A DNA stretch of 64,000 bases, taken from assembly GCF_009811555.1 (NCBI RefSeq), contig NZ_BLIN01000002.1, forward strand, positions 1,240,001-1,304,000. The letters run 5' to 3'. This stretch comes from Streptomyces caniferus. Lineage in GTDB: Bacteria > Actinomycetota > Actinomycetes > Streptomycetales > Streptomycetaceae. A model generated the notes under the pieces. That model was not told where the DNA came from. It did no database searches and saw nothing but the letters and a program-made list of their open reading frames with translations. Position 1 is the first letter of the stretch. The number at the start of each line of letters is the position of its first letter. Positions 17,438-19,489 of this stretch are shown piece by piece. The position numbers and the translations under genes were made by a program.

Positions 17438-17477
17438 GGAATTGCCCCGTCCGCTTTCTGGCGGACGGGGCAATTCC
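17438..17477 (-). terminator. strong terminator after the ThrC-like/sulfur-carrier operon
   Basis: GGAATTGCCCCGTCCGC and its exact complement form a perfect 17-bp stem around a 6-base loop. It lies 28 bases past the stop of the MoaD-like gene. Confidence 0.85.
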
Positions 17478-17505: not shown

Positions 17506-17784
17506 TCAGCAGCCGCCGGCCACCGCCGGAATGATCGAGACGCCCGCGCCGTCGGGGGTCGGCGTCTCGAGGCCCTGCTCGAAGCGCACATCGTCGTCGT
17601 TGACGTACACGTTCACGAAGCGGCGCAGCTTGCCGGCGTCGTCCAGCACACGGGCCGCGATGCCCTGGTGGTTCTGCTCCAGGTCGGCGATCACCTCGGA
17701 GAGGGTCGCGCCCTCGGCGGCGACCTCGGCCTGGCCGTCGGTGTACGTGCGGAGGATGGTGGGGATGCGGACCTTGACGCTCAT
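17506..17784 (-). CDS. MoaD/ThiS/CysO-type sulfur-carrier protein with a C-terminal GGC tail
   Basis: A 92-residue beta-grasp protein. MSVKVRIPTILRTYTDGQ, FVNVYVNDDDVRF and the end VSIIPAVAGGC are those of MoaD/ThiS-like carriers, in which the terminal Gly-Gly is adenylated and turned into a thiocarboxylate that donates sulfur. Here one extra Cys follows Gly-Gly, so a protease (JAMM/Mec+ type in known cases) would have to trim it first; no such gene is in the window. It sits 74 bases downstream of the threonine-synthase-like gene in the same operon behind a SAM riboswitch. This points to Cys or Met synthesis rather than molybdopterin, whose other genes are absent. Confidence 0.88.
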   Translation of the reverse strand: MSVKVRIPTILRTYTDGQAEVAAEGATLSEVIADLEQNHQGIAARVLDDAGKLRRFVNVYVNDDDVRFEQGLETPTPDGAGVSIIPAVAGGC

Positions 17785-17858
17785 GGTGGTGCCTTCCGGG
17801 GTTGCGTGTACGAGTGCGGGGGCGGCGCGGCCTCGTGCGCGGGCCGGCGCCGGCGGCC

Positions 17859-19142
17859 TCAGCGGGCCAGGCCGGCCGCGCGGAACGCGTCCAGGTCCGG
17901 ACGGATCGTGGCCGTGGGCCCGGAGGTCGGGGCGACCGCGTCCAGCGTCTTGAGGCCGTCACCGGTGTTCAGGACGACGGTCGTCAGGGACGGGTCGAGC
18001 ACGCCCTGCTCGATGAGCTTCTTGGTCACGCCGACGGTCACACCGCCCGCGGTCTCCGCGAAGATGCCTTCCGTGCGGGCCAGCAGCTTGATCGCGTCCA
18101 CGACCTGCTCGTCGTCGACGTCGTCGACCGCGCCGCCCGTACGGCGGGCGATGTCGAGCACATACGGACCGTCCGCCGGGTTGCCGATCGCCAGCGACTT
18201 GGCGATGGTCTTCGGCTTCTGCGGGCGCACGACGTCGTGCCCGGCCTTGAAGGCCGTGGACACCGGCGAGCAGCCCTCCGCCTGGGCACCGAAGATCTTG
18301 TACGGCTTGTCCTCGACCAGGCCGAGGGCGATCAGCTCCTTGAGCCCCTTGTCGATCTTCGTCAGCTGCGAGCCCGACGCGATCGGGATGACGATCTGGT
18401 CCGGGAGCCGCCAGCCGAGCTGCTCGCAGATCTCGTACGCGAGGGTCTTGGAGCCCTCGCCGTAGTAGGGGCGCAGATTGACGTTGACGAAGCCCCAGCC
18501 CTCGCCCAGCGGGTCGCCGATGAGCTCCGAGCAGAAGCGGTTGACGTCGTCGTAGTTGCCCTCGATGCCGACCAGGTCACCGCCGTAGACCGCGGCCATG
18601 ACGACCTTGCCGGCCTCCAGGTCGTGCGGGATGAACACGCAGGACTGGAAACCGGCGCGGCGGGCCGCGGCGCCGACCGCACCGGCGAGGTTGCCGGTCG
18701 AGGAGCAGGAGAGCGTGGTGAAGCCGAAGGCGCGGGCGGCCTCGACGGCGATCGCCACGACGCGGTCCTTGAAGGAGTGCGTCGGGTTGCCGGAGTCGTC
18801 CTTGACGTACAGACCGCCGGTGACGCCCAGCTCGGCGGCGAGCCGGTCGGCCTTGACGAGCTTGGTGAAGCCGGGGTTCAGGTTGGGCTTGTCGGCCACG
18901 TCGGCGGGGACGGGCAGCAGCGGGGCGTAGCGCCAGATGTTGTCCGGACCGGCCTCGATCTGCTTCCGCAGGCTCTCGGGGTCGCCGCTCGGCAGGTCGT
19001 AGGCGACTTCGAGCGGCCCGAAACATTCCTGGCACGCGAAGATCGGGCCGAGCGGGAAGCGCTGTCCGCACTCGCGGCAGGACAGGGCTGCGGCGGGGCC
19101 CAGAGCGACGGTGGGGGTGTTTTCGGTGACTTGCACAGCCAT
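17859..19142 (-). CDS. thrC: threonine synthase-like PLP enzyme under SAM riboswitch control
   Basis: A 427-residue fold-type II PLP enzyme. The N-terminus has a Cys4 knuckle (CREC near residue 22, CQEC near 37), followed by GLYVKDDSGNPTHSFKDR with the PLP lysine and a Ser/Gly-rich phosphate loop SSTGNLAG. By homology it converts O-phosphohomoserine to threonine. It lies not with hom/thrB but alone with a sulfur-carrier gene, behind an S-box riboswitch, so it may instead use the carrier's sulfur to make homocysteine; that is inference. The ATG at 19142 gives MAVQVTENT; an in-frame ATG at 19166 lies inside the riboswitch P1 stem. A genome search for a second thrC would help decide. Confidence 0.88.
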   Translation of the reverse strand: MAVQVTENTPTVALGPAAALSCRECGQRFPLGPIFACQECFGPLEVAYDLPSGDPESLRKQIEAGPDNIWRYAPLLPVPADVADKPNLNPGFTKLVKADRLAAELGVTGGLYVKDDSGNPTHSFKDRVVAIAVEAARAFGFTTLSCSSTGNLAGAVGAAARRAGFQSCVFIPHDLEAGKVVMAAVYGGDLVGIEGNYDDVNRFCSELIGDPLGEGWGFVNVNLRPYYGEGSKTLAYEICEQLGWRLPDQIVIPIASGSQLTKIDKGLKELIALGLVEDKPYKIFGAQAEGCSPVSTAFKAGHDVVRPQKPKTIAKSLAIGNPADGPYVLDIARRTGGAVDDVDDEQVVDAIKLLARTEGIFAETAGGVTVGVTKKLIEQGVLDPSLTTVVLNTGDGLKTLDAVAPTSGPTATIRPDLDAFRAAGLAR

Positions 19143-19161
19143 GGAGGCGAGGCCCTTTCTC

Positions 19162-19318
19162 CTCATCTTCCTCGCGACGAATCTCGCCACGAGACGGATT
19201 TGGCACCTTCCCTAGCCGGGAGCCTCGCGCGCGGGACGATCGAGCGTCCTTGCGGCAAGACCGGCTGGAGGGTTGCCGGGGCTTCAACGGGCCGTGTCCC
19301 TCTGCCCCTCTGGATGAG
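19162..19318 (-). promoter_or_regulatory. SAM-I (S-box) riboswitch
   Basis: Read on the minus strand, the conserved core is complete: CTCATC (P1) then AGAGGGGCAGAGGGA, GGCCC, TTGAAGCCCCGGCAACC, a P3 stem AGCCGG/CCGGCT, GGTGCCAAATCC, and GATGAG closing P1 against CTCATC. This is the S-box consensus for S-adenosylmethionine. The 3' P1 strand runs directly into GAGGAGAAAGGG, the likely ribosome-binding site of the ThrC-like gene, so SAM binding probably blocks translation. The length (157 nt) is somewhat long because P3 is extended. Confidence 0.88.
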
Positions 19319-19489
19319 CGGTATGGCGCTGGGCCGAAACCCAGGCGTTTGTGGCGCGGACCCCGACATGCGACGGTCATCCGCGTTGTTCAAGACTGTA
19401 ACCGAAGGCACTGACGGTTGAGATAGTCGTCCGAACCGCGAGATGGATCACAGAGGCCGCCCACCGGCGGCGACCGAGGAGTCGTAGAC

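Follow-up and report, generated by a model that had tools for sequence, protein, structure and literature searches.

Described systems and the metM-metO operon

The closest described relative of the locus treated here is the MetM/MetO system of Streptomyces albulus. MetM was identified in Streptomyces by Hasebe et al. 2024 as a novel homocysteine synthase, converting O-phosphohomoserine to homocysteine. In S. albulus, metM has an S-adenosylmethionine (SAM) riboswitch upstream, the enzyme keeps the organism from methionine auxotrophy, and metO resembles a Microcystis gene annotated as a sulfur carrier (all per PMC12172450; this and the other articles cited are represented by excerpts, to which our statements refer). 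In a 64,000-nucleotide stretch of Streptomyces caniferus DNA (assembly GCF_009811555.1, contig NZ_BLIN01000002.1, positions 1,240,001 to 1,304,000), hereafter the window, a SAM-I riboswitch precedes a gene for a threonine-synthase-like (ThrC-like), pyridoxal phosphate (PLP)-dependent enzyme and a gene for a MoaD/ThiS-fold sulfur carrier. This arrangement is confirmed, and we are highly confident that it is a metM-metO operon under SAM-I control that makes homocysteine with carrier-held sulfur. Thiocarboxylated MetO is said to have been established as the sulfur donor of MetM in the 2024 work.

The original prediction for this DNA, a carrier-dependent homocysteine synthase repressed by SAM and using O-phosphohomoserine, is supported, as it agrees with the S. 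albulus MetM and MetO of Hasebe et al. 2024. The novelty that it implied does not hold, as the homocysteine pathway via MetM and MetO is already known, having been in print since 2024. Our additions are modest and comprise a residue pattern, counts across the phylum, the likelihood that MetO is PtmS3, and a candidate operon in Acidimicrobium ferrooxidans. The S. albulus system shares with the window the genus, a ThrC-like homocysteine synthase acting on O-phosphohomoserine, the upstream SAM riboswitch and metO; no difference was found, the two being likened by description (PMC12172450).

Three further described systems are similar. The CysM/CysO/Mec system of mycobacteria likewise combines a PLP enzyme, a thiocarboxylated carrier, an O-phospho amino acid, a protease and MoeZ-type activation, but converts O-phosphoserine to cysteine (PMC3227635). 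In the window the partner of the carrier is ThrC-like, so the locus is not the CysM/CysO cysteine-synthase pairing; the S. caniferus genome has cysM-like, cysO-like and JAMM genes clustered elsewhere, and both systems coexist. A methionine route referenced in PMC5764234 also draws its sulfur from a protein thiocarboxylate. Canonical ThrC (TIGR00260; PDB 2zsj, 6cgq, 1uim, 2d1f, 1e5x) shares with MetM the family, the SFKDR motif and the presumed substrate. We take the enzyme of the protein-thiocarboxylate route to be O-acetylhomoserine sulfhydrylase, with a PLP fold unlike that of ThrC-like MetM. The excerpt of PMC12452182 contains nothing on a metM-metO operon, and that of PMC1779556 does not mention threonine synthase.

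SAM-I riboswitch and leader

When the whole 64-kb window was scanned, RF00162 (SAM-I) was the sole Rfam family above its gathering threshold. The aptamer (19160..19320, minus strand) is complete, with one long variable stem-loop, and matches the full-length model (1-108) at 74.2 bits against a gathering threshold of 44.4 (E 1.6e-15). The complete S-box expected upstream of the ThrC-like gene is therefore supported by the covariance search that the original prediction had proposed, and the S-box motifs it quoted are all found in the sequence as written. The end coordinate given there, 19318, falls short, as the match reaches 19320, two nucleotides further. No second SAM-I aptamer was found in the 9.15-Mb, 10-contig genome, where scoring covered 150 of the 509 first-look candidates.

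The aptamer occupies the leader position, its 3' end lying 17 nt from the metM start codon on the same strand (spacer at 19143..19159, minus strand). This spacer is too short for an intrinsic terminator, so SAM control would be exerted at the level of translation; GAAAGGG within it is a possible ribosome-binding site. Folding of the leader alone did not draw the full aptamer (z = -1.62, with 10 of 200 shuffles equally good) and is excluded from the evidence. A short GAGG/CCUC hairpin upstream of the start codon in the minimum-energy fold was set aside as too weak for a claim.

MetM compared with canonical threonine synthase

The metM gene (17859..19142, minus strand) encodes 427 amino acids from ATG 19142, a length that fits the range of the listed relatives. 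An alternative 443-residue reading from GTG 19190 was rejected because this codon sits within the aptamer. The enzyme matches Pfam PALP (PF00291) at 217.5 bits and carries an N-terminal CxxC...CxxC pattern (residues 22-25 and 37-40; 19023..19079, minus strand), which we take to be zinc-ribbon-like. Together with the TIGR00260 match of the enzyme and the PF02597 match of the carrier, all on the same strand, this substantiates the claim that a ThrC-like PLP enzyme and a MoaD/ThiS-type carrier follow the S-box. Its assignment as MetM draws on family scans, clade separation and near-fixed residue differences.

We compared 30 MetM-type proteins with 21 canonical ThrC proteins, namely that of S. caniferus and 20 chosen from 96 other ThrC-bearing genomes. 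The tree splits MetM from canonical ThrC with 100/100 support, and thereby places MetM outside canonical ThrC in the phylogeny of homologues with and without the carrier that had been suggested as a check. At 24 alignment columns, one residue occupies at least 19 of the 20 MetO-adjacent MetM sequences and another at least 20 of the 21 ThrC sequences. MetM has RPxYxxGSK, ASGS, ETAGG and TGNL against NPxRxxGQK, GNAG, EPASA and TGNT in ThrC, and several of the differing columns are, we assume, substrate-holding sites of ThrC. Ten MetM rows lack an adjacent MetO. They agree with the other MetM sequences at 22 of the 24 columns, apart from a single row at column 222, whereas the majority of them deviate at columns 156 and 258.

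Canonical ThrC thus differs from MetM in forming a separate group and in having mostly NPxRxxGQK, GNAG and EPASA, whereas MetM has mostly RPxYxxGSK, ASG[SA] and ETAGG. The window enzyme neither groups with the ThrC encoded in hom-thrC-thrB nor has its motifs. A first, stricter motif set was dropped, having failed on many proteins of the Acidimicrobium set. With the relaxed set, all three MetM motifs are present in 120 of 120 listed relatives of the window MetM, while the 120 proteins listed for the Acidimicrobium set have three in 30 cases, two in 89 and one in a single case. None of the three ThrC motifs is present in any of these 240 listed relatives. Among the rows of the tree, the MetM proteins show all three MetM motifs in 29 of 30 cases and two in the other; the 21 ThrC proteins have three ThrC motifs in 11 cases, two in eight and one in two, and one row with a single ThrC motif also fits one MetM pattern. 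The motifs are a guide and no strict rule.

The genome of S. caniferus was searched with the window enzyme, and five places matched. The second-best match is a 361-residue canonical ThrC, 36% identical to MetM over residues 87-436 and scoring 321.9 with TIGR00260. Its gene sits between hom and thrB, two flanking genes that we name from their sequences. A separate thrC beside hom and thrB, which the original prediction had suggested looking for, therefore exists, and the window enzyme is not the only threonine-synthase-like gene of the genome. The main refuting condition named with the prediction, a sole threonine synthase, does not hold. Another of the five places is presumably an IlvA-like protein, and the last is a CysM-like protein that exceeds TIGR01136 (372.5 against 344.15) and lies below both cysM equivalog cut-offs.

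A third ThrC-like protein of 407 amino acids, about 30% identical to MetM, is encoded elsewhere in the genome (L012, 3183-4406, plus strand). Of the 25 NCBIfam families shown for it, none has its cut-off exceeded, and neither hom nor thrB is among the open reading frames listed in its 8 kb.

MetO and its C-terminal cap

The metO gene (17506..17784, minus strand) begins 74 bases beyond metM and encodes a MoaD/ThiS-fold carrier of 92 amino acids, which matches Pfam ThiS (PF02597) at 61.9 bits. The protein ends in ...AVAGGC, so that one Cys, encoded at 17509..17511 (minus strand), caps the Gly-Gly. The genome holds four PF02597 carriers, of which MetO ends in GG-C, a CysO-like protein in GG-MV, and two others in bare GG. 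The search for JAMM proteases, made with PF14464 only, gave a single match in this genome, near the cysO-like and cysM-like genes. The CysO-like carrier itself, ending in GG-MV, is encoded at L013, 5231-5506 (minus strand), near this sole PF14464 match and the cysM-like gene.

Capped carriers typically require a protease (PMC6006322). From its GG-Cys end, MetO probably needs trimming by a JAMM protease as well. The GG-Cys end is present in 49 of the 79 readable near relatives and absent in 30; a protein search with MetO gave the Cys cap in 87 of 120 sequences, no cap in 28 and different endings in five. Because many relatives lack the cap, an essential chemical role for it is unlikely.

A comparable inventory has been described for Streptomyces platensis, where PtmS2 carries an MV cap and PtmS3 a C cap, alongside two carriers with bare ends, a single JAMM protease and a homologue of MoaZ, as it is spelled there (PMC6006322). 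PtmS3 resembles MetO in its single Cys capping Gly-Gly and in the carrier and JAMM content of its genome, but it is discussed for thioplatensimycin and, within the excerpt, without a link to methionine (PMC6006322). The Cys-capped PtmS3 of S. platensis is likely to be MetO.

From these components the following sequence of events may be proposed. The JAMM protease would trim MetO to its Gly-Gly end, and a MoeZ-type E1 enzyme would adenylate and thiocarboxylate it, after which thiocarboxylated MetO could pass its sulfur to MetM. In MetM, PLP is expected to be bound by Lys125 of the SFKDR motif. O-phosphohomoserine, presumably supplied by hom and thrB, would lose its phosphate on MetM, and carrier sulfur would take the place of the water used by threonine synthase, giving homocysteine and then methionine; a MetO-homocysteine adduct may have to be hydrolysed on the way. 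With plentiful SAM the riboswitch would turn the operon off, most likely through a block of translation.

Occurrence in near relatives and across the phylum

The near-relative set comprises the best 80 of at least 521 confirmed, a choice by score that is biased towards similar loci; 79 are titled Streptomyces and one Actinacidiphila. RF00162 lies upstream of metM in all 80, and MetO directly downstream in 79; the contig of the remaining one (L124) stops 76 bases past the metM match. Among the 12 near-relative leaders printed, GATGAGGAGAAAGGGCCTCGCC upstream of the start codon is common to all, and the 17-base spacer of the window is unchanged in 10. The listed relatives of both window proteins are nearly all from Streptomyces, the others being one Wenjunlia, one Stenotrophomonas-labelled record and one Actinacidiphila; the MetM of S. 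noursei B-3066 is 89% identical to that of the window.

For a wider view we used a phylum sample of 119 genomes, S. caniferus included, counting MetM and canonical ThrC at E <= 1e-60. A MetM-type enzyme is present in 46 genomes, and 44 of these also have canonical ThrC. By elimination, the last two genomes without a ThrC match are G110 and G113, neither of which is MetM-positive. MetX was counted at E <= 1e-40, as the 500-bit cut-off of TIGR01392 proved unusable, being reached by none of the 119 genomes and none of 14 controls, Corynebacterium glutamicum included. We accepted the top TIGR01392 matches, at 372-476 bits, as MetX. Five second matches were weaker, at 147-171 bits, and came from genomes that the count already included. 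MetX was found in 7 of 46 MetM-bearing genomes against 33 of 73 others (Fisher p 7e-4), and a MetO/CysO-type carrier (E <= 1e-8) in 46 of 46 against 25 of 73 (Fisher p 5e-15), p-values that overstate the contrast and are indicative only, given the relatedness of the genomes and a carrier query that picks up CysO too.

In 32 of the 46 genomes, no more than 600 bases separate metM from a carrier gene. Of these 46, 30 loci were fetched, that of S. caniferus among them; MetO adjoins metM in 20, and a riboswitch stands directly upstream of metM in 11, eight of them outside the genus. Nine loci of one family (f12) form a 100/100 group inside MetM and have neither an adjacent MetO nor a riboswitch; each of the nine genomes has canonical ThrC and encodes a MetO/CysO-type carrier at another place. 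In eight of them (L036, L039-L042, L044, L045, L047) the open reading frame upstream of metM is alike, and we take it to be a dihydroxy-acid dehydratase gene (ilvD), in L040 with only the first 240 residues in frame. The ninth, L049, has different neighbouring reading frames, none like the putative ilvD, and a tenth f12 genome in the sample, G073, gave no MetM match.

One genome of the sample bears on a described gap. In 2018, A. ferrooxidans DSM 10331 was cited as an organism for which no homocysteine pathway was known (PMC5764234). The MetM of genome G080 (locus L038) is identical to protein P0241 of this strain over all 398 residues compared, and G080 is very probably A. ferrooxidans DSM 10331. 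Its SAM-I riboswitch (60 bits), metM and a metO ending in GG stand together, and a separate canonical ThrC is present. No MetX match was obtained in G080 at E <= 1e-40; MetA was not searched for there. Regarding later work on this gap, PMC5764234 alone names the organism among the matches listed. We think it probable that MetM and MetO are a main homocysteine route across much of the phylum and the missing route of A. ferrooxidans.

Surroundings of the operon

Downstream of metO, a perfect 16-bp inverted repeat (gaattgccccgtccgc / gcggacggggcaattc; 17439..17476, minus strand) appears terminator-like, yet has no U-run. Two further genes follow on the same strand, presumably one of cold-shock type and one for GroEL. 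Upstream of metM lies a divergent gene that we take to be glycosyltransferase-like.

Alternative explanations

Several observations weigh against a dedicated, carrier-dependent homocysteine synthase. Besides the overstated p-values above, they include the 14 of 46 MetM-bearing genomes without an adjacent carrier, the 19 of 30 phylum loci in which no riboswitch was found upstream of metM, the seven MetM-bearing genomes that also carry MetX (among them G107, of the same genus), and the two MetM-bearing genomes, G058 and G097, without a canonical ThrC match at E <= 1e-60. To these belong the behaviour of the Microcystis homologue, the cystathionine enzymes of S. caniferus and the TIGR00260 score of MetM, each taken up below with the explanation that it favours.

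Of the alternatives, the best surviving one is that MetO is a general sulfur donor with other clients, and that MetM also accepts CysO or free sulfide. The loss of PtmS2 is tolerated in S. platensis, with Cys-capped PtmS3 perhaps substituting in thioplatensimycin formation (PMC6006322), which would fit a shared MetO, as would the 14 genomes without an adjacent carrier, all of which have a MetO/CysO-type carrier elsewhere. Since the operon linkage of carrier and metM holds for 79 of the 80 near relatives, the last one being unreadable, and for 32 of the 46 MetM-bearing genomes of the phylum sample, we regard this sharing as possible but doubtful.

A bifunctional MetM, mostly a homocysteine synthase but with a real threonine-synthase or threonine-deaminase side activity in the cell, is less probable still, and we consider it unlikely. 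It is suggested by the Microcystis homologue, which is 51.6% identical to S. albulus MetM, adjoins a metO-like gene and has no riboswitch; this protein was reported active as threonine synthase and deaminase. With sulfide it gave only an unidentified peak, which also appeared when no sulfur source was supplied, and its action in the cell was judged not fully MetM-like (PMC12172450). The retention of canonical ThrC in 44 of 46 MetM-bearing genomes speaks against such a second role.

Homocysteine might also arise mainly through a plant-like cystathionine gamma-synthase acting on O-phosphohomoserine and then cystathionine beta-lyase, with MetM and MetO contributing little. In the S. caniferus genome neither MetX (best match 22.3 bits) nor MetA/HTS is recognisable, and a scan with PF01053 gave 11 matches, including four long proteins. 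One long protein exceeds the cystathionine gamma-synthase cut-off NF005871 (678.7 against 513) and one the cystathionine beta-lyase cut-off TIGR01324 (453 against 365.9), so there is some room for plant-like transsulfuration; a third exceeds the cystathionine gamma-lyase cut-off (540.8 against 440), and the fourth passes none of the NCBIfam cut-offs shown. Cystathionine enzymes may, however, serve reverse transsulfuration. As S. albulus without MetM is implied to be a methionine auxotroph (PMC12172450), we hold this route to be very improbable.

Least probable of all is a second, ordinary threonine synthase beside an unrelated carrier gene: MetM does pass the TIGR00260 cut-off (264.6 against 167.1), and its named listed relatives are titled threonine synthase or L-threonine synthase, but the SAM riboswitch upstream here and in near relatives, the distinct thrC that 44 of the 46 MetM-bearing genomes keep, the 24 near-fixed differences, the lack of any ThrC motif in 240 listed relatives and the published function of MetM (PMC12172450) all argue to the contrary.

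Implications

With the metM-metO operon as the preferred interpretation, the locus illustrates how the real role of an enzyme can be predicted from its regulation, here a SAM switch placed before a "threonine synthase". The listed relatives titled threonine synthase or L-threonine synthase are probably misnamed, and the residue pattern helps annotators to separate MetM from ThrC. For A. ferrooxidans, in which homocysteine synthesis was listed as unexplained (PMC5764234), the operon suggests a concrete answer.

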